Virus record (IMG/VR): IMGVR_UViG_3300043410_001642
Span: 1 to 41,119 of that record
Length of the DNA: 41,119 nucleotides
Origin: a virus
Reading direction: 5' to 3' (one strand)
Both the position numbers and the translations under genes were made by a program. Below are positions 22,808 to 40,414 of this stretch, in pieces. The notes beneath the pieces were generated by a model. It saw nothing but the letters and a program-made list of their open reading frames with translations, had not been told where the DNA came from and ran no database searches. Positions within the stretch are counted from its first letter, which is position 1. Each line of letters starts with the position of its first letter.

Positions 22808-22809
22808 TT

Positions 22810-23109: not shown

Positions 23110-23111
23110 TT

Positions 23112-24347: not shown

Positions 24348-24354
24348 ATAACAA

Positions 24355-24948: not shown

Positions 24949-24950
24949 TT

Positions 24951-25178
24951 ATGACATCAAAAGAATTTGTTATTTGGACTAAAGGTTTTGTTGCCGGTTC
25001 TAATAATTTCAATTTAACACCTGCTGGGTGGCAAGAATTAAAAGATAAATTGGGGGAAGTAAATGATGAAGACCCTAATAAATTATTAAAAGATTATGTA
25101 AATCCATATGGAGGTAAATATACAACTACTTCTACTATACCACCCTATACAACCGGTGGAAATGATATAAAAGATTAA
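24951..25178 (+). CDS. Small hypothetical phage protein
   Basis: 75 residues starting MTSKEFVIWTKGFVAGSNNF, then NLTPAGWQELKDKL. This pattern (EF-x-x-W-x-x-G-F, followed by T-x-x-x-W-x-x-x-K-x-x-L) is typical of a small helical protein found in many phages, of unknown role. The C-terminal third is proline-, threonine- and tyrosine-rich and probably disordered. It begins 2 bases after the previous stop. Confidence 0.6.
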   Translation: MTSKEFVIWTKGFVAGSNNFNLTPAGWQELKDKLGEVNDEDPNKLLKDYVNPYGGKYTTTSTIPPYTTGGNDIKD

Positions 25179-25179
25179 G

Positions 25180-25803: not shown

Positions 25804-26771
25804 AAAAGAAAAGAGCACTTATCACCGGTATAAACGGAATGGATGGTTCGCATTTAGCAGACTTCCTTTTGGAAAGAGGTGATTACGAAGTATTTGGTAT
25901 TGAAAGAAGAAAGGCGAATTATTATTCACCTAATATAGAACACTTAAATGGTAAGATATCTCTAATAAAAGGAGATTTATCAGACCAAAACTCTTTGTTA
26001 AGAGCTATTAAAGACTGTGAACCACATGAAGTATATAACTTAGGGGCACAATCATTTGTAGGTGAAAGCTGGACAATGCCAGAACAAACATCTGATATCA
26101 CAGGTTTAGGAGCATTAAGAGTGTTGGAAGCCATTAGAGAATATGGTAATAAGAATACTAAATTCTATCAGGCATCTTCTTCTGAAATGTTTGGTAAGAA
26201 AGGTGGTGTAGCAAACGAAGATACTACATTCTATCCTTGTTCTCCATATGGTGTATCTAAATTATATGCACATTGGATTACTAAAAATTATAGAGAATCT
26301 CATGGTATGTTTGCAGTAAGTGGTATCTTATTTAATCATGAATCTGAAAGAAGAGGGCATGAATTTGTAACTCGTAAGATTTCAGATGGTGTTGCAAGAA
26401 TTCATTTAGGATTAGCAGACCATATCTCATTGGGTAATTTAGAATCTAAAAGAGATTGGGGTTATGCACCTGATTATGTTGAAGGTATGTGGTTAATGAT
26501 GCAACAAGAGAAATCTGATGATTATGTATTAGCAACCGGTGAAACACATTCAATTAGAGAATTCTTAGATGAAGCGTTCAAACATATTGGAATTGATAAT
26601 TGGTCTAAATATATTAAGGTAGACCCTAGATTTATCAGACCGGTTGAGGTTAGTTACTTATTGGGAGATGCGAGTAAAGCTAAAGAAAAATTAGGATGGC
26701 AACCAAAAACATCCTTTAAGGATTTAGTGAAAATTATGGTTCAAAATGATATCAAATTATTAAAGAAATAA
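25800..26771 (+). CDS. gmd: GDP-mannose 4,6-dehydratase
   Basis: A 323-residue short-chain dehydrogenase/reductase enzyme that converts GDP-D-mannose to GDP-4-keto-6-deoxymannose, precursor of fucose, rhamnose and related sugars. It shows the NADP-binding loop ALITGINGMDGSHLADFL, GDLSDQNSL, the catalytic SSSEMFGK and Y-x3-K (YGVSK), and the substrate loop NHESERRGHEFVTRKI. These are diagnostic for GMD. No GDP-fucose synthase or other follow-up enzyme is recognisable nearby, so the next step may use host enzymes or the C-methyltransferase-like protein at 27724. Confidence 0.92.
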   Translation: MKKKRALITGINGMDGSHLADFLLERGDYEVFGIERRKANYYSPNIEHLNGKISLIKGDLSDQNSLLRAIKDCEPHEVYNLGAQSFVGESWTMPEQTSDITGLGALRVLEAIREYGNKNTKFYQASSSEMFGKKGGVANEDTTFYPCSPYGVSKLYAHWITKNYRESHGMFAVSGILFNHESERRGHEFVTRKISDGVARIHLGLADHISLGNLESKRDWGYAPDYVEGMWLMMQQEKSDDYVLATGETHSIREFLDEAFKHIGIDNWSKYIKVDPRFIRPVEVSYLLGDASKAKEKLGWQPKTSFKDLVKIMVQNDIKLLKK

Positions 26772-26773
26772 TT

Positions 26774-27715
26774 GTGAAGAAAAAGATATTATTCATAAGT
26801 AGAAAGGCTGAAAGATGTGGAGTAGCGGATTACGGAGGAAGAGTAAACGCTGCTTTACAAAAATCTGAATTGTTTGAAACTCATTGGGCAGAAATAGAAA
26901 CTGGGGAAGAGTATATAAATTGGTTTAATAAAGTAAAACCTGATTTGGTATTATACAATTATTATCCAGTCATATTACCTTTTGTAACCGATGAGTTTTT
27001 AAAACCATTTAGACATGTTCCTCATGTTGCTGTATATCATGAAGTTGGATTCTATTTCACACCAACTGCAATTATTGATATAGATTCAACTTTGAGTGAT
27101 AATGTTGATAATAAAGTATTCATTTCTCCTAGACCACTTTTTGAAGATATTGAATTCAAAGATTTTCCTCCAAATGAAGTTCCAACGATAGGAAGTTTTG
27201 GATTTGGATTTCCAGATAAAAACTTTCCTAAGATTGCTGAATTGGTATGTTCACAATTTGATAAAGCTAAAATTAGATTAAATACTCCATTTGCTACATT
27301 TGGAGATTGTGATGGTGCGAGAGCAAAAGCTGAAGTTGAAAAGATGAGGCAGATAATTGATAATAGTGGTAAGGATATTGAATTGGAAGTGAATCATGAT
27401 TTTTTAGAACATATAGATTTATTAAACTTTTTAAGACAAAATGATATAAATGTTTTTTTATACGACCCGCATACAACGAGAAGTTTAAGTGGAAGTATGG
27501 ATTATGCATTATCAGTTAGAAAGCCAATCGGAATAAGTAGAAGTTGGATGTTCAGACATGTAAATTGGGTTAAACCTTCGATATATGTAGATGAACGACC
27601 ATTGAGGGATATAATAGCAGATGGTATAGAACCATTGAAACCAATTTATGAAAAACATTCAAACAAAGCGTTATTGGAGAAATACGAATACGCATTAACA
27701 ACAATATTAAATTAA
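26774..27715 (+). CDS. GT-B glycosyltransferase-like protein
   Basis: 313 residues from GTG 26774, two bases after gmd. It starts KKKILFISRKAERCGVADYG, an N-terminal loop like that of GT4 enzymes acting on capsule or O-antigen, and has FLYDPHTTRSLSGSMDYALSVRKPIGIS in the donor domain. The E-x7-E motif is not obvious, so activity or donor type is uncertain. It is very probably part of the same glycan pathway. Confidence 0.65.
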   Translation: MKKKILFISRKAERCGVADYGGRVNAALQKSELFETHWAEIETGEEYINWFNKVKPDLVLYNYYPVILPFVTDEFLKPFRHVPHVAVYHEVGFYFTPTAIIDIDSTLSDNVDNKVFISPRPLFEDIEFKDFPPNEVPTIGSFGFGFPDKNFPKIAELVCSQFDKAKIRLNTPFATFGDCDGARAKAEVEKMRQIIDNSGKDIELEVNHDFLEHIDLLNFLRQNDINVFLYDPHTTRSLSGSMDYALSVRKPIGISRSWMFRHVNWVKPSIYVDERPLRDIIADGIEPLKPIYEKHSNKALLEKYEYALTTILN

Positions 27716-27723
27716 GAAATAAT

Positions 27724-28956
27724 ATGAGTAAATTTACGAAAAAGTTGTTCAGTTTAGGAGAACTTTATGTTTCAGATTTTATCAATGTAGATTCTGATGC
27801 AAGAGCAGGGAAACATGATATGACCCTTGTTATTGATGAGAGATATGGTGCAGCTCGTTTAGATAAGTGCACTCCAATACATTCTATGTTTGGAAAGTAT
27901 TGGTATAGAAGTGGAATTAACACAACTATGAGAAACGAATTAAAAGGTATCGTAGAAAGTGTTGAATCCGTTCACAAATTAAACGATGGTGATTTGTGGT
28001 TAGATATTGCATGTAACGATGGAACACTTTTAAGTTATGTTCCCTCTAATGTTAAGAAGTTGGGTATTGACCCTGCTGAAGATTCGTTCAAAGCAGAATC
28101 ATCTAAAATTGCTGATGAAGTAATTCAAGATTATTTTTCATTAGAAAGTTTTAAGCGTTCTAAGTTTAAGAAAAAGAAAGCAAGTGTAGTAACTTGTATT
28201 GCTATGTTCTATGATTTAGATGAACCTATCGGTTTCTTAAAGGATGTATCTAAAGTAATGGAAGATGATGGATTGTTTATTATTCAAATGAGTTATACTC
28301 CATTGATGATTAAACAATTGGCTTTTGATAACATTTGTCATGAGCATGTTTACTATTGGGGATTAACTTCTATGCAAAAGTTATTAAACAAAGCAGGATT
28401 AAAAGTAGTTGATGCTCAAGTAAATGATGTTAATGGCGGAAGTTTCAGATTATACATCAAAAAGAAGAAATCAAATGTAACTTCATTTGCAACTGCACCA
28501 TATAGAGATGTATGTGATGTAAGAGTTGAATCTTTGGCTAAATGGGAAAAAGGATTGAAATTGGATAAAGAAGATATTTGGGTAGATTTCTTTGCCAGAA
28601 TTGAAGCGTTAAAAGAACAGACTGTTAATTTCATAAAAGCGGAGAAAGCTAAAGGTAAAGTTATTTGTGGTTATGGTGCTTCTACAAAAGGAAATACCTT
28701 ATTACAATACTTTGGTTTAGATAATACTTTGATTGATGCAATTGCAGAAAGAAGTGAGTATAAATTTGGTTTGAAAACAATTGGAACTAATATCCCAATC
28801 AAATCAGAAGAAGAAGTAAGAGCAATGAACCCAGATTATATGTTAGTATTACCTTGGCACTTCATTTCAGAATTTATTAAAAGAGAAGATGAATTTTTAT
28901 CTAAAGGTGGTAAATTCATCGTTCCTTGTCCAACCTTTGAAATAATCGGAAAATAA
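27724..28956 (+). CDS. Sugar C-methyltransferase-like SAM enzyme
   Basis: 410 residues with the three-part layout of NDP-hexose C-methyltransferases (TylC3/NovU type). A short N-terminal part here has few cysteines, so the usual zinc site is degenerate. The SAM domain has WLDIACNDGTLLSYV. The C-terminal Rossmann-like domain has ICHEHVYYWGLTSMQ, NGGSFRLYI and VICGYGASTKGNTLLQYFG. Such enzymes methylate a 4-keto-6-deoxysugar, the very product type of GMD two genes upstream, which gives the island a coherent pathway. It would place a methyl branch on the sugar. Confidence 0.78.
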   Translation: MSKFTKKLFSLGELYVSDFINVDSDARAGKHDMTLVIDERYGAARLDKCTPIHSMFGKYWYRSGINTTMRNELKGIVESVESVHKLNDGDLWLDIACNDGTLLSYVPSNVKKLGIDPAEDSFKAESSKIADEVIQDYFSLESFKRSKFKKKKASVVTCIAMFYDLDEPIGFLKDVSKVMEDDGLFIIQMSYTPLMIKQLAFDNICHEHVYYWGLTSMQKLLNKAGLKVVDAQVNDVNGGSFRLYIKKKKSNVTSFATAPYRDVCDVRVESLAKWEKGLKLDKEDIWVDFFARIEALKEQTVNFIKAEKAKGKVICGYGASTKGNTLLQYFGLDNTLIDAIAERSEYKFGLKTIGTNIPIKSEEEVRAMNPDYMLVLPWHFISEFIKREDEFLSKGGKFIVPCPTFEIIGK

Positions 28957-28957
28957 T

Positions 28958-29581
28958 ATGAACAAACTATTAAATCAAAAAGAACATCAAAATTATCAAT
29001 CTGCTTTGCAATTGATGAAAGAACATTCTCCTGAAATGTTAGCAAGAAAAATTCCAGAAGCGTGTATTCAACAGGCATTTACATTGCAAACTGCTTTGGA
29101 TTTAACTCCAAAGGGAGGATTAGTATTATCTGCTGGAAGCTGGGAAGATACTGCTACTGAAAGTTTGAAAAAATTAGGATATGTTGTAACGGATGTAGAC
29201 CCGATGATTAATTCGGATCTTAAAACTTATTTTGATAACAACCCACAGCTACATAATAAAATTGATTCAGTAGTATCAACATCAGTTATAGAGCATGTTC
29301 AAAATGACGAAGAATTTATAGATTGTATTTGTAAATTATTAAAGAAGGGTGGATATGGAATTGTAACAATGGATTACAACAATGATTATTTAAATGGTAA
29401 TGTAACCAAACCAAACGAAGATGTTAGGTTATATACTGAATATGATTTGAGAGTGAGATTGAATTCGGTATTAGAACAAAATGGTTGTGAATTATTGAAC
29501 GCAGATTATAGTGGAACAAATGATTTCTGCTATGCTGGTCATTGGTACACATTTGCTACATTTGTATTTAAGAAAAAATAA
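28958..29581 (+). CDS. SAM-dependent methyltransferase, class I
   Basis: 207 residues starting one base after the previous gene. GGLVLSAGSWEDTATESLK is a variant of the SAM-binding motif I, with GYVVTDVDPMI supplying the acidic residue that binds the ribose. VVSTSVIEHVQNDEEFI and LLKKGGYGIVTMDY are typical motifs IV and V of small-molecule and sugar methyltransferases. Probably modifies a hydroxyl of the glycan or a precursor. The substrate is unknown. Confidence 0.72.
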   Translation: MNKLLNQKEHQNYQSALQLMKEHSPEMLARKIPEACIQQAFTLQTALDLTPKGGLVLSAGSWEDTATESLKKLGYVVTDVDPMINSDLKTYFDNNPQLHNKIDSVVSTSVIEHVQNDEEFIDCICKLLKKGGYGIVTMDYNNDYLNGNVTKPNEDVRLYTEYDLRVRLNSVLEQNGCELLNADYSGTNDFCYAGHWYTFATFVFKKK

Positions 29582-29584
29582 TAA

Positions 29585-30247
29585 ATGAACGAGATATATA
29601 AATCGGAAACTGGTCTAGATAAGTGGATAAGAGAAAATGTATTCACTGATTATGAATATAAAGGTATTATGATAGAAGTAGGAGCGGCAACGCCGGAAAC
29701 TATTTCAAACTCATACCATTATAGAATAAATGGATGGAGAACGATTTGTATTGAACCAAATCCTTATTTCATAGAATTGCATAAAAAATCAAATTCTGAA
29801 GCTTATCAATATGCCTGTTCAGATGTTGATAAAAATGAAGTTGATTTTATAGTAGTAGGTAACGAAACGAATGATAGTGACTTAAATTATCATTCGTTTT
29901 CACACCTTGACACTACTGATATTTTAATAAATGGTGAAATAGCAGAAGATTGGAAGAATGTATATCATTCATCTGATAAGAAAACAATAAAAGTTAATGT
30001 TAGAAAACTTGATACTATTTTAACCGAATTAAATGTTGATAGGATAGATATATTAACAATTGATGTGGAAGGTAATGAAATGAATGTATTAAAAGGATTT
30101 GATATAGTAAAATATAATCCATCTATAATCGTAATAGAAAACATATCTAGACTTGATATTTTTAGAGAATTATTGAAGGAATATGGATATACTAATATTA
30201 TTACATTAGGGGGATATGATGAGATTTATGTAAATGATAAAAAATAG
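29585..30247 (+). CDS. FkbM-family methyltransferase
   Basis: 220 residues. MIEVGAATPETISNS (motif I), WRTICIEPNPYF, VRKLDTIL and IDILTIDVEGNEMNVLKGF are the diagnostic order for FkbM-type O-methyltransferases, common in bacterial and phage glycan clusters. It would O-methylate a sugar hydroxyl. The gene contains a 12-bp hairpin at 29865-29899. Confidence 0.82.
   Translation: MNEIYKSETGLDKWIRENVFTDYEYKGIMIEVGAATPETISNSYHYRINGWRTICIEPNPYFIELHKKSNSEAYQYACSDVDKNEVDFIVVGNETNDSDLNYHSFSHLDTTDILINGEIAEDWKNVYHSSDKKTIKVNVRKLDTILTELNVDRIDILTIDVEGNEMNVLKGFDIVKYNPSIIVIENISRLDIFRELLKEYGYTNIITLGGYDEIYVNDKK
29865..29899 (+). other. 12-bp hairpin inside the FkbM gene
   Basis: AAACGAATGATA (29865-29876) and TATCATTCGTTT (29888-29899) are perfect reverse complements around an 11-base loop, with one more T after the right arm. 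A 12-bp exact stem is unusual in coding sequence. The short T-run makes it only a weak terminator candidate. Confidence 0.5.
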
Positions 30248-30250
30248 TTT

Positions 30251-30601
30251 ATGATTAAGATAAGTTTAGACGAAGCATATGTGTTTGATTTATTATCCAT
30301 TTATTCGGTTAAAATAGATAATAGCGATGGTGATAAAAGAGAACAAAGTTTTAAAAACTATAATTTATTGTGTAAAGAAATACAAAATCAAATAGGTGTA
30401 GCTAAATTTACTCAAATTATTAATAGTAATGAATATAATAATTTAAAAATTGCTAACCAATTAGTTTTTAATTTAGTTGATAGAGCAAATGAAAATGAAT
30501 TGGCAAAAGAAACGGCTGGTGCTAATTATGAAAGATATCTTAAAAAAATAGAATTACAAAAGAAATTTTTTAACACTAATGTAACTGAAATTAAACTATG
30601 A
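30251..30601 (+). CDS. Hypothetical helical protein
   Basis: 116 residues, mostly helical, starting MIKISLDEAYVFDLLSIYSVKI. No recognisable motif. It overlaps the next gene by four bases (ATGA) and is embedded in the sugar island. The N-terminal wording is reminiscent of small phage proteins that begin with an ISLDEAY stretch, but I cannot name a family. Confidence 0.55.
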   Translation: MIKISLDEAYVFDLLSIYSVKIDNSDGDKREQSFKNYNLLCKEIQNQIGVAKFTQIINSNEYNNLKIANQLVFNLVDRANENELAKETAGANYERYLKKIELQKKFFNTNVTEIKL

Positions 30602-31338
30602 GTGAAATCAAATCATATTTGCAAGGAGGTAAATTAGGAGATTTAATTCATAGTTTAGTTGTATGTAAATTCAACTATGAATTCTTTAATTACAAAGCTG
30701 ATTTATATATCGGTAATATAGGTGATAATTTTGAAAAGGGATTGGAATATACCTATAATGATTTAAAGCCGGTATTGGAACAACAAGAGTGGTTAAATTC
30801 ATTTGGTATATACACTGACCAACATATTGATATCAACTTAACAAAGTTTAGAGATAGTGGTTATCTATACACCACAAATTGGATTGAAATATATTTTGGT
30901 GAATTTTTTAACGGAATGCCTGCACCAAAGGAATATAGTTGGATTACTTTACCAAAAGATGAAAACTTACAAAATACTTTATTGATAAATCGTTCTATGA
31001 AACCAATGACCGAAAAGGTCACTGAATTCTATAAACAAGTAATAGATGAAAATAAAGATTTAGATAAAGCGTTTATATGTTTTGATGAAAATCAATATAA
31101 TAATTTTACACTTAGAAATGAATGTAGAATGATTAAAGTAAATAGTTTATATGATTTCTTTCAAAAAATAAATAGCTGTAAATTATTCTTAGGTAATCAA
31201 TCCGGTCCAATGGCTTGGGCTACATCTATGAATGTACCAAGAATAATAGAATTATTAGCAAGAACGGATAATGTTCATTATATAAAGGATACCGAATATT
31301 ATTCAAATTTTAAATGGTTTCAAGGAGATACTGCATAA
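30598..31338 (+). CDS. GT-B (GT9/heptosyltransferase-like) glycosyltransferase
   Basis: 246 residues. The N-terminus SYLQGGKLGDLIHSLVVCKF resembles the G-x-x-GD-x-I/L entry loop of ADP-heptose transferase-like enzymes. Near the C-terminus, CKLFLGNQSGPMAWATSMNVPRIIEL matches the donor site of the GT9 family (strand, G-x-D/Q-S-G, helix, P). It is short for the family (about 340), so it may be a reduced member. It overlaps the following GT2-like gene by one base. Confidence 0.68.
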   Translation: MSEIKSYLQGGKLGDLIHSLVVCKFNYEFFNYKADLYIGNIGDNFEKGLEYTYNDLKPVLEQQEWLNSFGIYTDQHIDINLTKFRDSGYLYTTNWIEIYFGEFFNGMPAPKEYSWITLPKDENLQNTLLINRSMKPMTEKVTEFYKQVIDENKDLDKAFICFDENQYNNFTLRNECRMIKVNSLYDFFQKINSCKLFLGNQSGPMAWATSMNVPRIIELLARTDNVHYIKDTEYYSNFKWFQGDTA

Positions 31339-32501
31339 TGAGTAACATATCAACACTAGTAGGATTAAAAAACAATTTAGAATATTCTAAAAAGTTTTAT
31401 ACAAGATTTAGGGAAGTTTACCCAACGGAAGAATTGTGTTTTGCCAGTTATGGTTCTGATGATGGAACTAATGAATGGTTGGATTCTTTGACTGATGAAA
31501 ATTTAAAATATTACTATTCAAAAGATAAGAAAACATTTTCAGATACATTCAACAAATGTGCCGAAATAGCAACCAAAGAATATATAGTGTTTTGTCATAA
31601 CGATATTGTTATGTTAGAAGGCTGGTTGGAGAACATAGAAAAACATTTAAACAAATCAACCGCGGTAACATATACTACCATAGAACCTCCTATATTTTCC
31701 GATCATGAAAGGCCTGGAAAAATAATAAGAGATTTTGGTTTAGAATTTGAAGATGTAAATTATGAAGAATTAGAAAAGTTTGGGAAGGAAACACAAGAAA
31801 AATATAAAAACCAAACAACGGAAGGAAATGCATTTTTTATAGCACAACATAGAGGTATGTATTTGGCAATTGGTGGTATGGATAATTTGTATTCCCCAAT
31901 GTTTTGTGAAGATGATGATATTCTTTTTAGATTAAAACTATTGGGTATTCGTACAATAGTTAGTTTGGATAGTATAGTATATCATTTCGTATCAAAAACA
32001 TCTCGTTTCTCTGAAGAACATAAAACTAATACTCAAGAAATAGAACGAAAATCTAATTTGAACAAAGTTAGAAAATGGGGTAGAATAGGTTTAACCACTG
32101 ATTTACACACTTATGATATTGGTTTAATTATACCAAATTGTAATGAAGATATATTGAGAGCATTAGAGCCATTTGTATCGACTATATTTGTAGATTGTGA
32201 TTTTATTAATTATATAAATTCAGAGCAACCTAATACTAAAATAAATCTATCAAGAAAGATAAAACCAATCAATAGTGTTAGGGATAATGATATTATACTT
32301 AGATGTAATGATGTATCTAAATTTACAAATGATGATTTTGGGTTGATTGCGAATCTTTCTAACTTTATATCAAATGAACAGGTTAAGCCTAATACAACAT
32401 TTGATTTTCAAAATTTCACTTTTAATGTGAAATCTAAGAATACATACGAACACAAATTAGTAAGTCTTAAATCAGATTATTATTTAGACAAATGTATTTA
32501 A
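31338..32501 (+). CDS. GT2-like glycosyltransferase with extra C-terminal domain
   Basis: 387 residues from ATG 31338, which overlaps the previous stop; the earlier in-frame TTG at 31314 is unlikely. The GT-A part (residues about 1-230) shows FASYGSDDGTNEWL, VFCHNDIVMLEGW (metal-binding N-D-x) and MYLAIGGMDNLYSPMFCEDDDILFRLKLLG, the conserved end of GT2 catalytic domains. Residues 240-387 form a second, unrecognised beta-rich domain. It overlaps the next gene by 10 bases. Confidence 0.75.
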   Translation: MSNISTLVGLKNNLEYSKKFYTRFREVYPTEELCFASYGSDDGTNEWLDSLTDENLKYYYSKDKKTFSDTFNKCAEIATKEYIVFCHNDIVMLEGWLENIEKHLNKSTAVTYTTIEPPIFSDHERPGKIIRDFGLEFEDVNYEELEKFGKETQEKYKNQTTEGNAFFIAQHRGMYLAIGGMDNLYSPMFCEDDDILFRLKLLGIRTIVSLDSIVYHFVSKTSRFSEEHKTNTQEIERKSNLNKVRKWGRIGLTTDLHTYDIGLIIPNCNEDILRALEPFVSTIFVDCDFINYINSEQPNTKINLSRKIKPINSVRDNDIILRCNDVSKFTNDDFGLIANLSNFISNEQVKPNTTFDFQNFTFNVKSKNTYEHKLVSLKSDYYLDKCI

Positions 32502-32989: not shown

Positions 32990-33730
32990 ATGGATATAAA
33001 AGAACAAATTAACCTATTTTTAGAACAAAACACCCCATCTGATACCGAATCATGGAATCAGATTGTTTCTGAAGCAAAAAATAAATTTGATGTTTACCCA
33101 TCTGCATATGCAAATGGATGGATTATTAGAGAATATATCAACGCTGGTGGTGCATTTGTAAACGAAGATGAAGACCCTCAACATGTAGCACAGGCTCTAC
33201 CTCAAACAAAAGAACTTAAAGGTAAATTAATTGGTGAAAAGTTAATGCAATATTTCAGTGAAATTGGATTAAAGCATGCTTGTTATCAAAATGAGGGTGG
33301 AGAAGTAAAGGTAATCGGATTAAATAAAGACCAGGTTAAGGAAGCAATTGATAAAATTGTGAAAGAATGGGTTAGTAATAAAATGCAAGAAATTGGATTA
33401 CCAGCAGGAGTTGGATTAAACCTTCCAGGTGGTTCAATCAATGGAGCACCATCGGAAGATGATGTTGATTCAATGAAAGATAAGTTAGGTAGAAATGAAT
33501 CAATTGATGGTAGAGGGCAAGCGTTATTAATGACGTTTAAAGATATAGTAAAAAATCATTCTTCATTAAAAGTAAAAGATTATGGAAAAACAACTTTAGT
33601 AGATGTTCAATCTGCTAATGTGGTTTTGAAGTTATATGATGCATTATCGGATAAGAATAAAGAATCATTGTTTAAAATGCCAGTTCCAAAGATGATACAA
33701 ATGGCTTGGCATGTAATGGGTAAAAAATAA
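32990..33730 (+). CDS. Putative virion-associated protein with phage YPSAYAN domain
   Basis: 246 residues. Residues about 20-55 contain KFDVYPSAYANGWIIREY, the hallmark of a small domain (DUF5872-like) frequent in T4-like phage structural or DNA-associated proteins. The middle is helical and acidic, with a GLPAGVGLNLPGG linker at about 143-155. A GRNESIDGRG stretch near residue 168 partly resembles the cleavage sites of the next gene. The last 70 residues are helical. It opens the block of putative prohead proteins and has no leader of the M-(I)-K-L type. Confidence 0.55.
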   Translation: MDIKEQINLFLEQNTPSDTESWNQIVSEAKNKFDVYPSAYANGWIIREYINAGGAFVNEDEDPQHVAQALPQTKELKGKLIGEKLMQYFSEIGLKHACYQNEGGEVKVIGLNKDQVKEAIDKIVKEWVSNKMQEIGLPAGVGLNLPGGSINGAPSEDDVDSMKDKLGRNESIDGRGQALLMTFKDIVKNHSSLKVKDYGKTTLVDVQSANVVLKLYDALSDKNKESLFKMPVPKMIQMAWHVMGKK

Positions 33731-33744
33731 AATAAGATAGTAAG

Positions 33745-34938
33745 ATGAATATGAATTTAAAAGGAATTATGAATAGTTTAGGTGCACAACCTGGACAAGT
33801 AGTATCTGACCCGTTTGCAAGAGCATTTGCACCTGCGCCGGTTGTTAAAGAAGAAACAATAAATGAAGAGGATCATGAAGTATCTATGGCTCAGAAAACA
33901 TTAGATGATATAATCAAAAATGCAACTGAATTAAAAGCTAAAATAGGTGAAGCTGAAACGGATTTACCAGCTTGGATTCAGGATCATATCAGTAATTCTG
34001 CAAACTATATTGACCAAGCAGCAAGTGGATTCTATAAAAATGAATCAATAAACGAAGAGGAAATTAAATGGAATGCAGTTGAAAATGCAATCATTAATTT
34101 TCTAAAAATGAATACAAAGATTTTAGATAAAAGAGTTAAAGATAGAGATACTGCAGGAGTTAAAGGTGGGTTAAAATCTATTATTAGTGGTTTAACTAAT
34201 GCACAGAGAAGTTTGAAATTAGAATCAATAAACGAAGTATCATATACTGTCAAAGCAAAAAATGCGTATGAATTTGTAAATGGTGCATATTCAGTTTTAG
34301 GTGCTTATTTAAGAGATGAAAAATTAGATAGTAGTGCAAAAGCTGCTCTTCAAAGAGTGGTAAAAGATTTAGAAGGATTGAGAAAGTATTTTTTCTCTAT
34401 GAAAGATGAATCAATAAACGAAGCATTCAAACATATTATATCAGTAGAAACTCCAACTCAAGTAGTTTCTAAACCAATAGCGGCACAAATTGAAAAATTA
34501 GCTAGACAAGGTGTTAGAGCATCTGAAATTGGTTTGAAAATGGGATTTGTAGGAAACCAAAAAGCAGCAACCGATGCTTTCCAAAAAGTAAAAAATCAAA
34601 TTTATTTTAAATTAAATAAATCTGAATCAGTAAACGAAGCAAGATTAACTGATATTGTTAATTCTATCATTGAAACTCCTGTAATTGGTAAAATGGTAGT
34701 TAATGCTCCTTCAACTACTCAACAAGTATCTGAAGCAAAAAAATATGATGTTGGAGCAGGGTTTATGGGAAATGGTTTAACTATTTGGAATAGAGCTGAA
34801 GAAGAACATGGAGATTATAGAATCATTGCACACATTGACCCATATGGTAAAATTAGTATTAGAGATAAAGAAATCCCATCTAATGTTATGAATATGATTA
34901 AAGATTGGGCTGAGGCAATTAAAAAAGGCGATAAATAA
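33745..34938 (+). CDS. Putative prohead-protease-processed polyprotein, five or six sites
   Basis: 397 residues. Recurring E-(S/T)-(I/V)-N-E motifs end at E41, E104, E164, E226 and E298, and a weaker QVSE ends at E330. The pieces between them are about 32 to 72 residues. P3 is Ile or Val and P1 is Glu, as in T4 gp21 cleavage sites (L/I-x-E). The pieces look like separate small domains: one with TDLPAWIQDHISNSANYIDQ (a helical module seen in other T4-like virion proteins), others helical, and the last with GNGLTIWNRAEEEHGDY, a known small phage module. The N-terminal piece is proline/alanine-rich. I infer it is packaged and cut into modules. Tail-fibre repeats are less likely because the domains differ. 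Confidence 0.6.
   Translation: MNMNLKGIMNSLGAQPGQVVSDPFARAFAPAPVVKEETINEEDHEVSMAQKTLDDIIKNATELKAKIGEAETDLPAWIQDHISNSANYIDQAASGFYKNESINEEEIKWNAVENAIINFLKMNTKILDKRVKDRDTAGVKGGLKSIISGLTNAQRSLKLESINEVSYTVKAKNAYEFVNGAYSVLGAYLRDEKLDSSAKAALQRVVKDLEGLRKYFFSMKDESINEAFKHIISVETPTQVVSKPIAAQIEKLARQGVRASEIGLKMGFVGNQKAATDAFQKVKNQIYFKLNKSESVNEARLTDIVNSIIETPVIGKMVVNAPSTTQQVSEAKKYDVGAGFMGNGLTIWNRAEEEHGDYRIIAHIDPYGKISIRDKEIPSNVMNMIKDWAEAIKKGDK
33853..34639 (+). repeat. Dispersed 16-base repeat GAATCAATAAACGAAG
   Basis: Exact copies start at 34042, 34222 and 34408. A copy with one change (GTA for ATA) starts at 34624, and a copy with two changes starts at 33853. A related copy lies in another gene at 37548-37563. 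They encode the E-S-I/V-N-E sites and keep the same codons, including AAC for Asn, although AAT is common around them. Confidence 0.75.
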
Positions 34939-35258
34939 TGGATACACAAAACATTTATACCGTCTTAGTAACAATAGTGACTGTTTTAGGAGGTGCATCT
35001 GCGTGGAGATTCTATGAGAAAAGAGCAATGCATAAGGAAAGAGATGAAGATTTCATCAGACACGATTGTAAAGACCGAATTTCTAAATTAGAAGCCCTTT
35101 TAGAAGCATCTGCAAAAGAAAAAGATGACTTAAGAGTAATGGTATTAAACCTTACTAAAGAAGTAGCGGCGTTAAGTGTAAAGGTTGAATTCCTTACAAA
35201 AGAAAACGAAGATCTTCATAAAAAAACTAAAACATCAAGAAAAGTAATAAACGGATAA
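34938..35258 (+). CDS. Small protein: membrane helix plus coiled coil
   Basis: 106 residues. Residues 5-23 (IYTVLVTIVTVLGGASAWRF) form one membrane-spanning or signal-anchor helix, followed by a charged region and a long heptad-rich helix at about 40-95 with leucines at regular spacing (SKLEALLEASAKEKDDL and on). The end is basic. The design is that of a membrane-anchored coiled coil, as in spanins or phage membrane scaffolds. It overlaps the polyprotein gene by one base and precedes the HAD phosphatase by one base. Confidence 0.62.
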   Translation: MDTQNIYTVLVTIVTVLGGASAWRFYEKRAMHKERDEDFIRHDCKDRISKLEALLEASAKEKDDLRVMVLNLTKEVAALSVKVEFLTKENEDLHKKTKTSRKVING

Positions 35259-35259
35259 G

Positions 35260-35805
35260 GTGATAAAACTTACTGAAATAATTTCTAGAAGTTTATTCTT
35301 AGAGGATAAAAAGTTAAGAGTATTTGATTTTGATGATACTCTTGTTAAAACTACATCCTTTATTTATATTACTCATAAAGGAGGAGGAAAATCTAAATTA
35401 ACTCCTGGACAATATGCAGTATATAAAGAAAAGCCGGGAGACCAATTTGATTTTAGAGATTTTAATGCAGTTAATAATCCAAAGGTAATCAAAGGTTATT
35501 TTGAATTATTAAAAAGAATGGCAGCCGATTCAAGTAAAGCAGTATATATCTTAACTGCTAGAGCTGCATATCAACCCGTATATAATTTTATTAGAGATAG
35601 TGGTATTAAAGATGTTTTCGTTGTTGCGTTGGGTGATAATAACCCAGAATCAAAAGCTGATTGGATAGAGAAGGAAATTCAAAGAAATGGGTATGATAAT
35701 ATTTATTTCGTAGATGATTCTGCTAAAAATGTAGATGCGGTAAAGAGAAGATTAAACAAATACCCTACTATTAGAAAGAAAGTCCAATTGGTTAAACATG
35801 GTTAA
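35260..35805 (+). CDS. HAD phosphatase with capsid-targeting-like leader
   Basis: 181 residues from GTG 35260. Residues 1-15 (MIKLTEIISRSLFLE) look like the short leaders of neighbouring virion-internal genes. The HAD core follows immediately: RVFDFDDTLV with D23 and D25 as nucleophile and acid, ILTAR (motif II), a lysine in ESKADWIEK (motif III), and FVDDS (motif IV). This is the class that includes polynucleotide 3'-phosphatases and small-molecule phosphatases. Missing cap insertions suggest an open active site for a large or nucleic-acid substrate. If the leader is real, the enzyme could be packaged and delivered with the DNA. That is inference. It overlaps the oxygenase gene by 8 bases. 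Confidence 0.7.
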   Translation: MIKLTEIISRSLFLEDKKLRVFDFDDTLVKTTSFIYITHKGGGKSKLTPGQYAVYKEKPGDQFDFRDFNAVNNPKVIKGYFELLKRMAADSSKAVYILTARAAYQPVYNFIRDSGIKDVFVVALGDNNPESKADWIEKEIQRNGYDNIYFVDDSAKNVDAVKRRLNKYPTIRKKVQLVKHG

Positions 35806-36496
35806 GAAAGAGATATTAGAAAACGGATGTTATACTGGCAATTTAGCCGAAATCAATCCTTCCTTATTAGATACATTAGAAACCTTAAGCGAATTAAGGA
35901 ATCATGAATTATACACAAGAGTAACCCATTCATATAGTAAAGCGGTAGATTCTGAATCCACTTTTAATAAAACATTTGAAGAAGCGGATGCGGTTAGAGA
36001 ACATCACTTAAACTTAAAGAAAAAAGGAGAACCTATTTGGCAAGTATTCTACACATATAATAATGAAAATGAAAAGAGTTCAAAGCTATTACATAAATAC
36101 ATACCTACTATAAGGGATTTGTTTATGGAGATAGTTCGTTATTGTTATGGAGAGGATATTGCAAGTAAAGTGTGGGAGGTTAATGGTAGTAATATAAACC
36201 TTACAAATTTTAGAAAGGGATGTTTTATTGAGAATCATGCCGATGGAGGAGGTAAGAGAATGGTGTGTAATATTCTAATATACACTAATCATGATTGGGA
36301 AGAAGGATTCGGAGGAGAGTTGGTATTGGAGGAAAAATTCAAACAACAACCCAAATTTGGTAATTTTGCAGTGTTGGATTTTATGACACATAACCCATTT
36401 CACTTAGTTACACCAATTGAAAAGGAGGGAATCAATAGATTTGCTCTACTTACAGGAATTTTATACGAAGAAAATTACTTTAATTCAATCATTTAA
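35798..36496 (+). CDS. 2-oxoglutarate/Fe(II) oxygenase
   Basis: 232 residues. The double-stranded beta-helix core carries an H-x-D pair in IENHADGGG, a distal histidine in NPFHLVTPIE, and the 2-oxoglutarate-binding arginine in NRFALLTG, the order of prolyl-hydroxylase-like oxygenases. Such enzymes occur often in T4-like phages, where they may hydroxylate proteins or nucleotides. It overlaps the HAD gene by 8 bases and has no leader of the type seen on its neighbours, so it may act in the infected cell rather than in the virion. Confidence 0.75.
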   Translation: MVKKEILENGCYTGNLAEINPSLLDTLETLSELRNHELYTRVTHSYSKAVDSESTFNKTFEEADAVREHHLNLKKKGEPIWQVFYTYNNENEKSSKLLHKYIPTIRDLFMEIVRYCYGEDIASKVWEVNGSNINLTNFRKGCFIENHADGGGKRMVCNILIYTNHDWEEGFGGELVLEEKFKQQPKFGNFAVLDFMTHNPFHLVTPIEKEGINRFALLTGILYEENYFNSII

Positions 36497-36509
36497 TATT
36501 TATATATAC
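36497..36509 (+). promoter_or_regulatory. TATTTATATATAC element before the tandem paralogues
   Basis: TATTTATATATAC overlaps the end of the oxygenase stop region and stands 16 bases before ATG 36526. It is identical to the element at 21193-21205. No -33 box is visible upstream. Confidence 0.4.
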
Positions 36510-36525
36510 TTAAAATAACATAACA

Positions 36526-36783
36526 ATGACAGTTTCTGAATTCAAATTAGAAAATCACAAAAGTATCACCGCAGAAGTGGCTGAGAATCAAGCATTATAC
36601 GATGGAACACACGCTGAAGAGGGTGATAAGTTGATAGATTGCTTTTTAGTATCAGAAGACGGTGAAGAAAAATTAATATACATAATCCCATCTCAATTAG
36701 CAGATTTTGAAATAGTTGAAGATTTGGAGTATGATGTATTCATTCCGTTATCAGACCAAAAATTCAAAGTTAAACTTAAATAA
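36526..36783 (+). CDS. Small acidic protein, tandem paralogue A
   Basis: 85 residues. Begins MTVSEFKLENHKSI and ends LSDQKFKVKLK. It is homologous to the next gene: MTV-x-E-x-KLEN, LY-x-G, G-x-K/L-x-D, S-x-L, F-x-IV and QKF-x-VK are shared in the same order. No known domain. The predicted all-beta, acidic character and the position in the prohead block suggest a small structural or virion-decorating protein, but this is not shown. Confidence 0.6.
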   Translation: MTVSEFKLENHKSITAEVAENQALYDGTHAEEGDKLIDCFLVSEDGEEKLIYIIPSQLADFEIVEDLEYDVFIPLSDQKFKVKLK

Positions 36784-36785
36784 GA

Positions 36786-37061
36786 ATGACAGTATTAGAA
36801 TGGAAATTAGAAAATTCAGTAGTAGTAACCGATGATAACTATGAGATGTTAAACACAACACAAATGTTATATAGTGGTGCTGAAATAACAAAAGGTTCTA
36901 AATTTATGGATGCAATATGCGAAACCGAAGAATTTGGACCTAAGACAGTTTACTTTTTAGATAGTGAATTGTATGAATTATTTGATATCGTAGATAATCC
37001 TGAATGGGATGATATGACTCCAGTAGCTACTCAAAAATTCACAGTAAAACCAAAAGCATAA
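36786..37061 (+). CDS. Small acidic protein, tandem paralogue B
   Basis: 91 residues, starting two bases after paralogue A. It begins MTVLEWKLENSVVV and ends TQKFTVKPKA. Divergence from A is high but the signature positions are kept, so the duplication is old. It has six more residues, mainly in the first loop. It is followed after 3 bases by the larger leaderless polyprotein gene. No domain recognised. Confidence 0.6.
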   Translation: MTVLEWKLENSVVVTDDNYEMLNTTQMLYSGAEITKGSKFMDAICETEEFGPKTVYFLDSELYELFDIVDNPEWDDMTPVATQKFTVKPKA

Positions 37062-37064
37062 GAA

Positions 37065-38114
37065 ATGCCAGCAGTAAGTAAAGCACAACAAAGATTTATG
37101 GGTATGGTGCATGCAGCCGATAAAGGCGAAACACCAGCATCCCCTGAAGTAGCAAAGGTATCAGCTTCTATGAAAGATTCAGATGCGAAAGATTTTGCTT
37201 CTACTAAACACAAAGGATTGCCTGATCATGTTAAAGAAGCAGTTAAGGAAATCGTAAGAGGTGTATTAAGAGGAGAAGGAGCATTTGGTTCAGTAGGTGG
37301 TGGAGCAGAAGATGCTAGAAACCTAATGGAGATGAGCCCTAATGATGTTCACTTTAAAACTATTATTAAATTATATGATAGAGGTGGTTCATTTACTAAA
37401 AAGAAAGTAGGAGTAGTGGTATCTAGAAATCCTAGAGCATCAAGAAATACAATTATTGATGACTTGAAAGATATGGATTATCATGAAATTCTTAATGCTG
37501 AAGATGAATTAGGTATAAAAGAAATAGTTGAAAAACGAATCGCAGAACAATCGGTAAACGAAGCTAAATATCCAACTGACTTAAAAGTGGGTTCGGTAAT
37601 TTTGGGGCAAGGATTCACAATGTTAAAAGGAATTGAAGGCGGAAAATACTACAAAGTTGTTGCAATAGATGATTATTCGGCAACATTAGTTCCATCTGAT
37701 AAGAATGGTAATGTAAAAGGTTCATCAAAAGTTAGACATAAATTAGATTCAATTGAAGGTGGTATTAGAACTGCTAAGAGAGGTGATGAAAACGGAATTG
37801 TTGTAATAAAAGAATCAGTAACCGAAGAACATGATTGTGGATGTAATGAAGATTATGATTGTGGATGTGGTGGATTACATGAACACCATATCAATGAAGA
37901 TATAAATGCGGATGCAAATGGTATAGCAGGTTTAACTGCTTCTAGAGCAAATGCGGTTAAAGATTTCATAGAAAAGCATAAATTAGATTCAAACAAATTA
38001 TATCAGTTCTTAAAAAAGGGTGGATTGAAAGATAAAATGGATTTCGTAACTGCATTAGTTGGGAAGCCGGGTAATTCTATTCAAACAAAACTAATAAAGC
38101 AATTTAGTAAATAA
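37065..38114 (+). CDS. Putative processed virion protein with DUF3008-like start and metal-binding peptide
   Basis: 349 residues. Residues 1-55 (PAVSKAQQRFMGMVHAA, then DFASTKHKGLPDHV) match the DUF3008-like module of phage and bacterial proteins. Candidate protease sites end at E166 (EQSVNE), E254 (KESVTE) and E278 (HHINE). Residues 172-248 (DLKVGSVILGQGF to NGIVVI) are a domain that recurs in the protein at 38406. Between E254 and E278 is a 24-residue piece with two DCGC units and several histidines, probably a metal site. Residues 279-349 are a helical basic module. The site pattern suggests four released pieces. Confidence 0.6.
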   Translation: MPAVSKAQQRFMGMVHAADKGETPASPEVAKVSASMKDSDAKDFASTKHKGLPDHVKEAVKEIVRGVLRGEGAFGSVGGGAEDARNLMEMSPNDVHFKTIIKLYDRGGSFTKKKVGVVVSRNPRASRNTIIDDLKDMDYHEILNAEDELGIKEIVEKRIAEQSVNEAKYPTDLKVGSVILGQGFTMLKGIEGGKYYKVVAIDDYSATLVPSDKNGNVKGSSKVRHKLDSIEGGIRTAKRGDENGIVVIKESVTEEHDCGCNEDYDCGCGGLHEHHINEDINADANGIAGLTASRANAVKDFIEKHKLDSNKLYQFLKKGGLKDKMDFVTALVGKPGNSIQTKLIKQFSK

Positions 38115-38115
38115 G

Positions 38116-38394
38116 ATGAAATTAAAAAATTTAATAGAAGTAAAATACTTAAACGAAGCATCATCAGTAGACCTTACGGAAATACCCGTAACGCAAGCTA
38201 AACAAGTATTGGCATTTGAAAAGGTATTAGGAGGAAAACATACCGATTTATGGGATGGTATTCACGGATATATTGTTTCAATTAAAGTACCTAATGGAAA
38301 AGAAAGATTGATGAGTGATGATTTAAAGAAATTACTTTCTTTAAAAATTCGTTGGATTGAGATAACTGGACAAGACATATATTTAGGATTCTAA
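38116..38394 (+). CDS. Small protein with capsid-targeting-like leader
   Basis: 92 residues. The first residues MKLKNLIEVKYLNEASS hold two candidate sites of the (L/I)-x-E type (LIE and LNE|A), like the leaders of neighbours. The rest is a small alpha/beta piece with no known motif. It shares the DNA stretch ATGAAATTAAAA with the next gene. Starts one base after the preceding stop. Confidence 0.6.
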   Translation: MKLKNLIEVKYLNEASSVDLTEIPVTQAKQVLAFEKVLGGKHTDLWDGIHGYIVSIKVPNGKERLMSDDLKKLLSLKIRWIEITGQDIYLGF

Positions 38395-38405
38395 TAAACA
38401 TTACA

Positions 38406-39683
38406 ATGAAATTAAAACATATACTTAATCCATCTCCTATTGTAGAATCTGACCTTAAGGTTGGAAATATGTATATGGTGCATGGGTATCCTCTTCTAAA
38501 AGGATTATTCCCAAACAAATACTATAAAATTCATTCTATTGATGGAGATGATGTAACTCTTCAACAAGTTAATCAATTTGGTAAAATAACCAATTTATCA
38601 AATGCTCCAGTAACACATAAATTATCTTCAATTAAGGCATCAGTTCAAAGTATTGGAAATGGTGATGCAAATGGTTTAGAATTAACAAACGAAGCAACTG
38701 CATCTGAAATTGTGAAAGATTTGGATAAAGTTAGAAATGATTTAATTAAAAAAGTAGATGTATTAATTGCTAAAAAGAAGAAACTTTATTCTAATGTAGA
38801 TATTGAATCACCAATGAGTGCTGATGAGAAACAATTAGATAAAGATATACAATCTATATTTTCACAAATTCAACAAATAATTCAACAAAAAAGAAGTTTG
38901 AAAAGTGAATCCGTAAAAGAAAATAAAATGATGAAATTAAAAGATGTCTTAAAAGAATCTGCTGGGTTTAACAAAAAGATAAAGAGTGATTTGGATTCAT
39001 ATTTAAAAGATTTTAAAAGTGGTACTCCTACACATCAATGGGCTGTTAAAGAAATATTAAAAAGTGCATTAACTGATGCAAATTTTCATAGTGCAGCTAA
39101 GAAAGTAGATTCATTATTTTCTAGAGCTAAATACGAAGAAGATTCTGCTAAAGAAAAATCATATCAAAACGCGGTAGAAAGAAAAGGTAGAGAAATTGCT
39201 AATAAAGCAAAATGGGATGGATATGAAATCATAGATGCTATATCATTTTATACATCAATGACAATAGGTCATCCACTTGGACAAAAAATAAATTCATTAA
39301 AGGAAGGAACAATTCCTCAACATATTAATAAAGTTGAATCTAAATTATCACTTAAAACTCTTATGAACGAAGCAAAGTTTCCGGTATATCACAAAACATA
39401 TACATCTGCTATTAGTTCAGCATTAGACTGGGTTGAAAAAATGGGGTATGAATATGATGAAGAAGAAACTGCGAGAGAAATAGGAATGGGGCCAAAAAAA
39501 CCATCCGAAGGTAAAACAAATAGATTTTCTATTTCATTAACTAAAAAAGGTAAGCCGGTAAAACAACATTTACAAATACAGGTTTACAATATGGGAACAT
39601 TCAAAAGAAACTCTGATGGTTCTAAGACTAGAAGTATGTGGGGTGGACAAAATGAATATGAATTAAATTGTTATATAGGGTAG
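38406..39683 (+). CDS. Putative multi-domain processed virion protein with leader
   Basis: 425 residues. The leader MKLKHILNPSPIVE fits an I-x-E site after E14. Residues 16-93 repeat the domain found at 172-248 of the protein at 37065 (DLKVG, LKG, YYK, HKLSSI, GDANGL). Candidate sites then occur in LTNE|A, ESVKE, DVLKE|S (preceded by an internal MMKLKDVLKE that copies a leader) and LMNE|A. The last module, about 100 residues (FPVYHKTYTSAISSALDWV to ELNCYIG), resembles a stand-alone T4-like phage protein with GPKKPSEGKTNRFSISL. The whole looks like fused genes. No catalytic motif. Confidence 0.62.
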   Translation: MKLKHILNPSPIVESDLKVGNMYMVHGYPLLKGLFPNKYYKIHSIDGDDVTLQQVNQFGKITNLSNAPVTHKLSSIKASVQSIGNGDANGLELTNEATASEIVKDLDKVRNDLIKKVDVLIAKKKKLYSNVDIESPMSADEKQLDKDIQSIFSQIQQIIQQKRSLKSESVKENKMMKLKDVLKESAGFNKKIKSDLDSYLKDFKSGTPTHQWAVKEILKSALTDANFHSAAKKVDSLFSRAKYEEDSAKEKSYQNAVERKGREIANKAKWDGYEIIDAISFYTSMTIGHPLGQKINSLKEGTIPQHINKVESKLSLKTLMNEAKFPVYHKTYTSAISSALDWVEKMGYEYDEEETAREIGMGPKKPSEGKTNRFSISLTKKGKPVKQHLQIQVYNMGTFKRNSDGSKTRSMWGGQNEYELNCYIG

Positions 39684-39730
39684 GTAATAAAGGTTATGCT
39701 AGATTGTAACATTAAAAAAGTTTTAACAAA

Positions 39731-39859
39731 ATGGCAAAAGCAAAAGGTTCAGCATCATCTCAAAAAGTTACATTTGGTAAAAGAGGAAAGGGTAAATACA
39801 AAAAAAGTTATGGCCCTAAAGCTCAAAAACCAAAAAGATATCGTGGTCAAGGAAGATAA
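39731..39859 (+). CDS. Small very basic protein (42 residues)
   Basis: MAKAKGSASSQKVTFGKRGK followed by a lysine/glycine-rich remainder ending YRGQGR. ATG 39731 is preceded by an A-rich leader, and the frame ends at TAA 39857-39859. It is very rich in K, R, G and S with almost no acidic residues, as in small DNA-condensing or core proteins. It is short enough to be missed by length filters. A longer overlapping frame at 39696-39878 on the same strand has poor composition and is rejected. Confidence 0.62.
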   Translation: MAKAKGSASSQKVTFGKRGKGKYKKSYGPKAQKPKRYRGQGR

Positions 39860-39887
39860 CAATATATTAGAGAGATAGACAAATTCC

Positions 39888-39920
39888 GAAGGGGGGCGGG
39901 GGGTATCCTCTTCCCCTTTT
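39888..39920 (+). terminator. G6-C-G6 tract with C-rich partner, possible terminator
   Basis: GAA is followed by six G, a C and six G (39891-39903), then a pyrimidine-rich stretch with CCCC and four T (39913-39920). AAGGGG (39889-39894) can pair with CCCCTT (39913-39918). It lies 30 bases after the small basic gene and is the most G-rich stretch in an otherwise AT-rich window. A strong hairpin plus T-run fits a terminator. A guanine quadruplex structure is the alternative. Confidence 0.5.
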
Positions 39921-39953
39921 CCCTTTGTCCTCCAACCTAAATTTTTTTGATAG

Positions 39954-39964
39954 TATTTATAGAT
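39954..39964 (+). promoter_or_regulatory. TATTTATAGAT element before a leader-bearing gene
   Basis: TATTTATAGAT immediately precedes ATG 39965. It is a weaker version of the AT-rich element seen at 21193, 32976 and 36497. TTTG at 39924-39927 lies at about 26 bases, which does not match the 20-base spacing of the other class. Confidence 0.3.
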
Positions 39965-40414
39965 ATGATAAAATTAACACAATTATTAAAAGAAGCACAT
40001 GAGCACGATAGAGATATGGTCGTTGGTGTAGCGGAGATTCTTCGTATGGTAGATGATATTGATAATAGAGATGATATCGCCGATGAGATGATGGATAAAT
40101 TTGATAGAGAGGGAGTTGATTACGATGTTGATGAATTTCTTCAAATGTGTGGGTTGAGTTCATTGGAAGAGGCCGCTCCGATGTTAAATAAACCTAAAGT
40201 ATCAAAAGCACCAAAAGGTGTTAAGAAACAACCTCTACCTCAAAGTGAAAAACCAACGGATGTAACGGATAAGATTAAGAATGCACAAACTCGTTTGAGT
40301 ATAATTCGAAAGCAATTAACTCTCCCACATACATCGGATGCAAAGACGAAATTACAAAAGAGAATCATCAAAACACAGGATACAATAAAGAACCTAAACG
40401 CAAAGAAAGGGTAA
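39965..40414 (+). CDS. Small protein with T4-like capsid-targeting leader
   Basis: 149 residues from ATG 39965 (the earlier in-frame TTG at 39947 lies in the upstream element). The leader MIKLTQLLKE|A has Glu at position 10 followed by Ala, like the T4 internal-protein leader MKTYQEFIAE|A. Next comes a conserved helical part (HDRDMVVGVAEILRMVDDI, EFLQMCGL) that I recognise from other T4-like phages, then SSLEEA and a long basic, lysine-rich helical tail with QKRIIKTQDTIKN. Likely a virion-internal or core protein. Confidence 0.62.
   Translation: MIKLTQLLKEAHEHDRDMVVGVAEILRMVDDIDNRDDIADEMMDKFDREGVDYDVDEFLQMCGLSSLEEAAPMLNKPKVSKAPKGVKKQPLPQSEKPTDVTDKIKNAQTRLSIIRKQLTLPHTSDAKTKLQKRIIKTQDTIKNLNAKKG

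Follow-up and report, generated by a model that had tools for sequence, protein, structure and literature searches.

The internal proteins of phage T4 are known as a scheme of one leader, one cut and one protein. The T4 protease gp21 cuts after L/I-x-E, leader residues 4 and 7 serving in targeting and residues 8 and 10 in processing, which is blocked by Asp at position 10 (PMC9026906), and the internal proteins whose role is known block type IV restriction (PMC9026906, PMC12373910). For the locus analyzed here, T4 internal proteins are the closest known system in mechanism, and polyvalent proteins, whose authors draw a comparison to viral polyproteins (PMC5512222), are the closest in architecture. 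The locus is a block of genes at positions 32990–40414 of the window, i.e., of the whole analyzed stretch of 41,119 nucleotides, which comprises bases 1–41119 of the 141,368-base IMG/VR record IMGVR_UViG_3300043410_001642 (label G000; 233 open reading frames, ORFs). A preceding sequence-only reading of the window knew of no described system in which a single packaged protein is cleaved into at least five domains, which is consistent with the open-licence literature; no description of packaged polyproteins cut by a prohead protease was found there (subscription journals and preprints lay mostly outside the search).

The source of the window is a T4-like phage, since the window encodes gp32, UvsX, gp41, NrdA/NrdB, DNA polymerase gp43, a clamp candidate and the clamp loader. 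The block is probably a virion-cargo island of this phage, combining leader-bearing single cargo proteins with polyproteins built as strings of modules. The modules are about 50–90 residues long and are separated by [ILV]-x-E sites, the extreme form of which is the stereotyped ES[IV]NE motif. The core idea, namely packaged and partly multi-domain cargo with putative gp21-type sites between the domains, is well supported by comparison with related sequences.

Candidate polyproteins with repeated ES[IV]NE seams

The gene of the block that bears the repeated motif, and the sites predicted in it, are listed below (an arrow marks the predicted cut).

33745..34938, + strand: candidate packaged polyprotein of 397 aa with about six modules (four ES[IV]NE, ETINE and QVSE)
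33853..33867, + strand: predicted site ETINE↓E, preceding the DHEVSMA module ([ILVM]xE ahead of this module in 14/15 homologues)
34042..34056, + strand: predicted site ESINE↓E, DNA seam GAATCAATAAACGAA, bordering a low-confidence linker of the AlphaFold2 model
34222..34236, + strand: predicted site ESINE↓V, DNA seam identical to GAATCAATAAACGAA (motif, DNA seam, AlphaFold2 model)
34408..34422, + strand: predicted site ESINE↓A, DNA seam identical to GAATCAATAAACGAA (motif, seam, model, homologue comparison)
34624..34638, + strand: predicted site ESVNE↓A, DNA seam GAATCAGTAAACGAA (motif, DNA seam, AlphaFold2 model)
34723..34734, + strand: predicted site QVSE↓A, preceding the C-terminal KYDxGxGxMGNGLT module ([ILVM]xE ahead in 8/8 homologues)

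In the encoded protein, ESINE occupies residues 100–104, 160–164 and 222–226, and ESVNE residues 294–298; ETINE and QVSE↓A are located at residues 37–41 and 327–330, respectively. Outside this gene, ES[IVL]NE was found zero times among the 233 ORFs of the record. Shuffling of residues within proteins gives an expectation of 0.21, and a chance origin of the repeats was rejected on this ground. Tandem duplication of one domain was also rejected for the polyproteins, since the modules between the seams are mutually unrelated. Homologues of the modules were found in 36 IMG/VR loci, where they are ordered differently.

According to the AlphaFold2 model of this protein, built from 17 sequences (pLDDT 55, pTM 0.23), all four motifs fall within loops or border the low-confidence linkers that join helical modules, and the alpha/beta C-terminal module after QVSE is predicted confidently (pLDDT mostly 78–94 beyond residue 330). 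The model fits a beads-on-a-string arrangement, for which it is weak evidence. A fold search with the model gave a single weak match, a protein of the Tenacibaculum phage pT24. Single-sequence AlphaFold2 modeling of the 818-aa polyprotein of an IMG/VR locus (L030) was uninformative (pLDDT 37).

Three overlapping scans of IMG/VR covered 36, 29 and 44 loci. The first two scans, taken together with four compared genomes (G000, its two near relatives G001 and G002, and the more distant G003), contained 61 distinct motif-bearing frames with at most nine motifs per frame; the third scan yielded 34 more frames. Splitting of the 61 frames at the motif gave 179 segments belonging to 100 families, 29 of which have more than one member, and 20 module families have at least two different neighbours on a given side. 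In BLAST comparisons with the motif masked, 71% of the internal ends of homology were no more than 8 aa from a motif, versus 30% at random, and in 40% versus 2.6% by chance this held for both partners; these statistics use non-independent ends. The polyproteins contain two or more distinct domains per polypeptide in variable architecture and, as sequence comparison shows, the seams are where modules have been gained, lost or rearranged.

The starts of modules were analyzed by comparing proteins that share a module and looking for [ILVM]xE in the 16 residues that precede it. Such a site precedes the YHK module in 7/7 cases, DHEVSMA in 14/15, KYDxGxG in 8/8, KYPTDLK in 4/4 and KHxIS in 8/8, versus 19–29% of random positions. 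For these five module types, a site of this form is conserved in homologues, the YPSAYA module being an exception that is considered below; a seventh module, with a site in one of two cases, is too rare to judge. Otherwise unrelated sequences lie upstream of homologous modules, among them ESVNE seams, the site MDE↓A of a Methylophilales phage and the MIKLKSLLNE leaders that open stand-alone genes. A Pfam search with ten polyproteins found DUF3008 plus weak matches and no recognisable effector or peptidase domain. In the polyprotein of the IMG/VR locus L172, residues 499–805 form a large C-terminal module (phrog_5268) with a P-loop-like GGAASGKG behind ESVNE seams; this module is possibly an enzyme cargo.

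The gp21-type protease (PF03420, E 1e-31 to 1e-35) and gp23 (PF07068) were found in G001, G002 and G003, in which gene names were assigned by position and similarity. The gene order in G001 and G002 is a polyprotein, a few small genes (in G001), gp17, gp20, two genes and gp21, followed by polyprotein A, polyprotein B, small genes, an acidic gp22-like gene and gp23. Every ES[IVL]NE site of these two genomes falls within three polyproteins, located just upstream of gp17 or between gp21 and gp22–gp23. The four genomes contain 4, 7, 8 and 2 copies of the motif, in one to three ORFs each, with about 0.2 expected. Site density per 100 aa in the prohead/cargo block versus the rest was 0.70 vs 0.13 in G001 (P = 2e-8), 0.65 vs 0.10 in G002 (P = 1e-9) and 0.28 vs 0.09 in G003 (P = 0.004), and the residue after the site is Ala in 27% versus 7% background. 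The gp23 proteins carry sites at one aligned place, QLVSE↓A in G001/G002, QLLDE↓A in G003 and QLISE↓A in Mel-JY01. This VSE/LDE/ISE↓A place probably corresponds to the gp23 maturation site of T4. In addition, gp21 of G001 carries VINE↓S beyond its catalytic part.

Polyprotein B of G001 and G002 starts with a T4-type leader, MKKLKDLLKE↓S. In G003, seven consecutive genes of the MIKLKSLLKE type consist of a leader and a short cargo, some of them matching polyprotein modules; the leader was found at 9/234 gene starts versus 3/950 internal Met residues. The scan of related phages suggested by the sequence-only reading found the leader in polyprotein B, in nine G003 genes and in six proteins of the phage S-CREM2 described below. 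Two other features of G003 (L060) are a terminase large-subunit gene (106261–109068) that is apparently interrupted by intein- or homing-endonuclease-like frames, and a 1513-aa cargo-like protein (98421–102962) with an intein-like C-terminal sequence.

The location of the G001/G002 polyprotein between gp21 and gp22 would also suit core proteins of the prohead that are of the scaffold type, such as T4 gp22, gp67 and gp68, whose gp21 fragments would leave the head and not be delivered. The N-terminal domain of that polyprotein also exists by itself as a single-domain gene in the equivalent location of Mel-JY01; in T4, core proteins are broken into several pieces, most of which exit the head (PMC9026906), and the long propeptides of the phage SPN3US are cut several times (PMC10052503). 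Nevertheless, a core role is unlikely, since a separate acidic gp22-like gene lies directly upstream of gp23 in G001–G003, the modules are varied and move between phages, which would not be expected of a conserved scaffold, related module proteins are still present in the mature virions of cyanophages, and the module sizes match those of retained T4 internal proteins. Identity of the polyprotein with gp22 itself is ruled out by the separate gene.

The ES[IV]NE motif is also conserved as DNA (GAATCRGTAAACGAA), which is a new finding here; the motif may therefore be both a protease site and a seam for in-frame recombination. The exact sequence GAATCAGTAAACGAA was found at 39 of the 88 seam sites. 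Within the seams, Asn is encoded by AAC in 82% of cases versus 34% genome-wide and Val by GTA in 99% versus 40%, and conservation of the DNA drops sharply beyond five codons. Exact or near-exact copies of the seam (at most one mismatch) in G000–G002 lie almost all in frame within polyproteins; one G001 copy with one mismatch is located in an unrelated small ORF. The conserved word probably acts as a recombination seam, the alternative being recent copying of one linker.

Strong conservation of a 15-mer with such codon biases, limited to five codons, would likewise fit a mere flexible linker or DNA recombination seam, without cutting, in polyvalent-type virion or host-takeover proteins, and some polyvalent proteins are delivered uncut. 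Such an explanation is quite improbable, as it does not account for the same modules starting after other I/L/V/M-x-E sites, including the leaders of single genes, for [ILVM]xE in Methylophilales phage proteins that are devoid of the DNA word, or for the confinement of the motif to genes adjoining the prohead protease and the excess of Ala after it.

If the polyproteins are packaged cargo, their precursors would enter the prohead core via a leader or a fused core-protein domain, and the gp21-type prohead protease would cut after each seam Glu during head maturation. The released modules of 6–10 kDa, comparable in size to the smaller T4 internal proteins, would be retained in the head, ejected with the DNA and act early, perhaps against host defences as T4 Ip1–3 do, and the conserved DNA word would probably aid in-frame recombination between modules. 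We propose tentatively, with somewhat less than even confidence, that the cargo is combinatorial: the 15-bp word GAATCRGTAAACGAA would serve as a DNA swap seam and as the prohead-protease site ES[IV]NE, and any module between two seams would become a separate injected protein. If true, one gene would package many small effectors that are swappable like cassettes and are cut by the capsid-maturation protease, and module mixing at seams would give phages a new means of assembling and trading packaged cargo. The seam and the leader would then provide a simple rule for spotting injected proteins in T4-like phages of marine and fresh waters, most of whose genes are unnamed, and the modules would be good candidates for new anti-defence proteins.

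Leaders, sites and virion homologues of the other block genes

The remaining features of the block are as follows.

32990..33730, + strand: gene with a DUF5872-like YPSAYA module right after IVSE↓A (33065–33073) (PF19197 E 4e-4, phrog_27331)
35260..35805, + strand: HAD/polynucleotide-kinase-phosphatase-like protein (phrog_415 E 1e-8)
37065..38114, + strand: DUF3008-headed multi-module protein (PF11450)
38116..38394, + strand: leader-type protein starting MKLKNLIEVKYLNE↓A (the start ends in LNE↓A)
38406..39683, + strand: multi-module protein whose single frame seems to hold two leader-bearing units (leaders, sites, shared modules)
38928..38957, + strand: internal T4-type leader MMKLKDVLKE↓SAGF at residue 175 of gene 38406 (T4 leader pattern)
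39965..40414, + strand: protein with an exact T4-type 10-aa leader MIKLTQLLKE↓A (39965–39994; positional match)

Looser sites of the form [ILV][NSD]E↓[ASGEVT] occur at 0.37 per 100 aa in the block versus 0.12 in the rest of the record (P = 0.0045). Leaders ending in Glu had been assigned by the sequence-only reading to the genes at 35260, 38116, 38406 and 39965. The leader of 39965 is exact and matches that of T4 position by position (hydrophobic residues 4, 7 and 8; Glu 10). The starts of 38116 and 38406 (the latter MKLKHILNPSPIVE↓S, ending in IVE↓S) have the I/L-x-E ending and are longer than the T4 leader. Gene 35260 begins at GTG with the leader-like MIKLTEIISRSLFLED, in which Glu is misplaced and an L/I-x-E site is missing, and its inclusion in the cargo set is not supported by its sites. 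The internal leader of 38406, which had been overlooked, resembles the N-terminus of the relatives' gp23, MKINNILNE↓SAGF. Overall, the T4-type 10-residue leader is present at 39965 and inside 38406 and absent from the starts of 33745, 37065 and 35260.

Repeated E-S-(I/V)-x-E stretches had been assigned to three genes. They stand for 33745, with its four copies, and fall away for 37065, where QSVNE↓A (37548–37562) and ESVTE↓E (37812–37826) occur in one degenerate copy each, and for 38406, which carries one degenerate ESVKE (38907–38921) and LMNE↓A (39360–39371) ahead of the YHK module. The modules of 38406 are common to the G003 leader genes and a Methylophilales phage. As for the wider proposal of packaged, capsid-matured and partly multi-domain cargo, it is favoured by gene position, gp23 sites, module starts and homologues in virions; it is partly supported, because cleavage and packaging are inferred for the ES[IV]NE proteins and the leader is exact in one of the four named genes.

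Virion proteins of the cyanophage S-CREM2 detected by mass spectrometry (MS) include a SAM hydrolase starting with MKDFDSFLEE, gp13 (MKDLHSFLTE), a kinase (KRFDAFLTE), a cytidylyltransferase (MKNFSSFLTE↓A) and gp136 (MQTFSMFFSE) (PMC10665884). The ends of these leaders resemble the GLLTE↓A site of the phage's own gp23. The strict leader pattern was found in 6/219 S-CREM2 proteins, 5 of them MS-detected, compared with 52/219 coding sequences detected overall (P = 0.003); with a looser leader length, 5/8 were detected (P = 0.02). Among the detected virion proteins are, in addition, the module proteins gp137 and gp160 (PMC10665884), and gp160 shares the YPSAYA module of gene 32990. The DUF3008 module of gene 37065 has a 69-aa homologue annotated as a virion protein in the phage S-SCSM1, in which NMNAT (MKSFLQFLKE↓A) is also a virion protein and ORF91 and ORF93 were likewise detected; according to the authors, some of the detected virion proteins may be carry-over (PMC9602691). 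In the S-CREM2 virion protein gp12 (L093, 7704–10313), annotated as Cas9, a leader-like FASFMAE↓A lies about 20 residues from the annotated start, which suggests a misplaced start or a longer leader.

Several points weigh against packaging and cleavage of the block products. No peptide shows a cut at any ES[IV]NE site, and the virion evidence comes from relatives whose sites are [LI]xE sequences of other kinds, with S-CREM2 gp137 detected thinly (4 peptides, 4.1% coverage). At position P3, Val is frequent, which departs from the strict T4 rule, although gp23 of the relatives has Val there too; the studied record is without gp21. YPSAYA modules have a nearby site in 4/19 homologues, perhaps because the searched word sits deeper inside the module. 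Searches of Pfam and PHROGs assigned a function to almost none of the modules, and the block is mixed, genes 34938, 35798, 36526 and 36786 having neither leader nor sites. Several of the statistics rest on non-independent homologues and on blocks picked after inspection.

The phage record and the setting of the block

The nrdA of the record is 81% identical to that of G001, and the polymerase 54%. Using tblastn, no match to the G001 terminase, portal, protease, scaffold, major capsid or sheath was found anywhere in the 141-kb record; the record is therefore incomplete and its virion module is missing. The search for a gp21-like protease, also suggested by the sequence-only reading, gave none in this record, which lacks every structural gene tested, and succeeded in G001–G003. 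The PF03420 profile search of the record had no match, the control genomes being equally silent in the same search; phrog_23 had no match in the record, and megablast of the first 25 kb had none among phages.

The block comes after replication and glycosyltransferase genes, the record contains no structural gene, and a search for the T4 late-promoter core upstream of the block genes gave no signal. These features would agree with early expression unrelated to virions, in which case the modules would resemble packaged ones for historical reasons. This is highly improbable: the virion-protein cluster of S-SCSM1 is comparably placed, near nrdA/nrdB and away from the head genes, and 39965 and 33745 still have an intact leader or intact sites.

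Outer-membrane TonB-type receptor genes in the record suggest that the host is probably a member of Bacteroidota. Two receptor-like genes with apparent signal peptides (46187–48793 and 59360–62377; locus L001) comprise a TonB-dependent receptor and a protein with a carboxypeptidase-regulatory domain and a beta-barrel, and a C-type-lectin-domain protein is encoded at 51283–53601. Such genes are unusual for a T4-like phage and possibly encode receptors for decoy or exclusion, or else result from a chimeric assembly. At ~132203–135873 (L005/L006), some ten small genes in succession with similar N-termini MLxIENxxKxxG apparently form a tandem family. The record also carries a nicotinamide phosphoribosyltransferase gene (111674–113137) and GroES/GroEL-like genes (116410–118337). 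In the window, glycosyltransferase-like and sugar-metabolism genes (21419–32501) precede the block; their relative position matches that in the Microcystis phage Mel-JY01.

Comparison with known systems

Cyanophage virion proteins (S-CREM2, PMC10665884; S-SCSM1, PMC9602691; S-SM1, PMC3037559) contain homologous DUF3008 and YPSAYA modules and, as here, T4-type leaders, which they bear on SAM hydrolase, kinase and cytidylyltransferase/NMNAT. Their sites are generic [LI]xE, unlike the stereotyped ES[IV]NE seam, and in the accessible text of these papers the leader and the sites go unremarked. The phiKZ-like head proteins cut by gp175/gp245 (SPN3US, PMC10052503) resemble the proposed system in having a gp21-related protease, a short Glu motif and several cuts per propeptide. 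However, the SPN3US cuts remove N-terminal propeptides, and the mature part is one protein.

Polyvalent proteins (Iyer et al. 2017, PMC5512222) share with the polyproteins many domains per polypeptide, predicted delivery with DNA and variable architecture. They consist of recognised effector domains, often with an embedded peptidase, whereas the modules described here are tiny, have neither assigned function nor embedded peptidase and are predicted to be cut in trans by the prohead protease. With T4 IPI–IPIII and Alt (PMC9026906, PMC12373910), the block has in common the leader (hydrophobic at positions 4, 7 and 8, Glu at position 10) and small variable cargo in shifting gene islands; a protease of the gp21 family is present in the relatives G001–G003. 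The T4 proteins lose a leader, and Alt also a C-terminal piece, whereas the proteins described here would be multi-site strings of modules recombined at a repeated seam.

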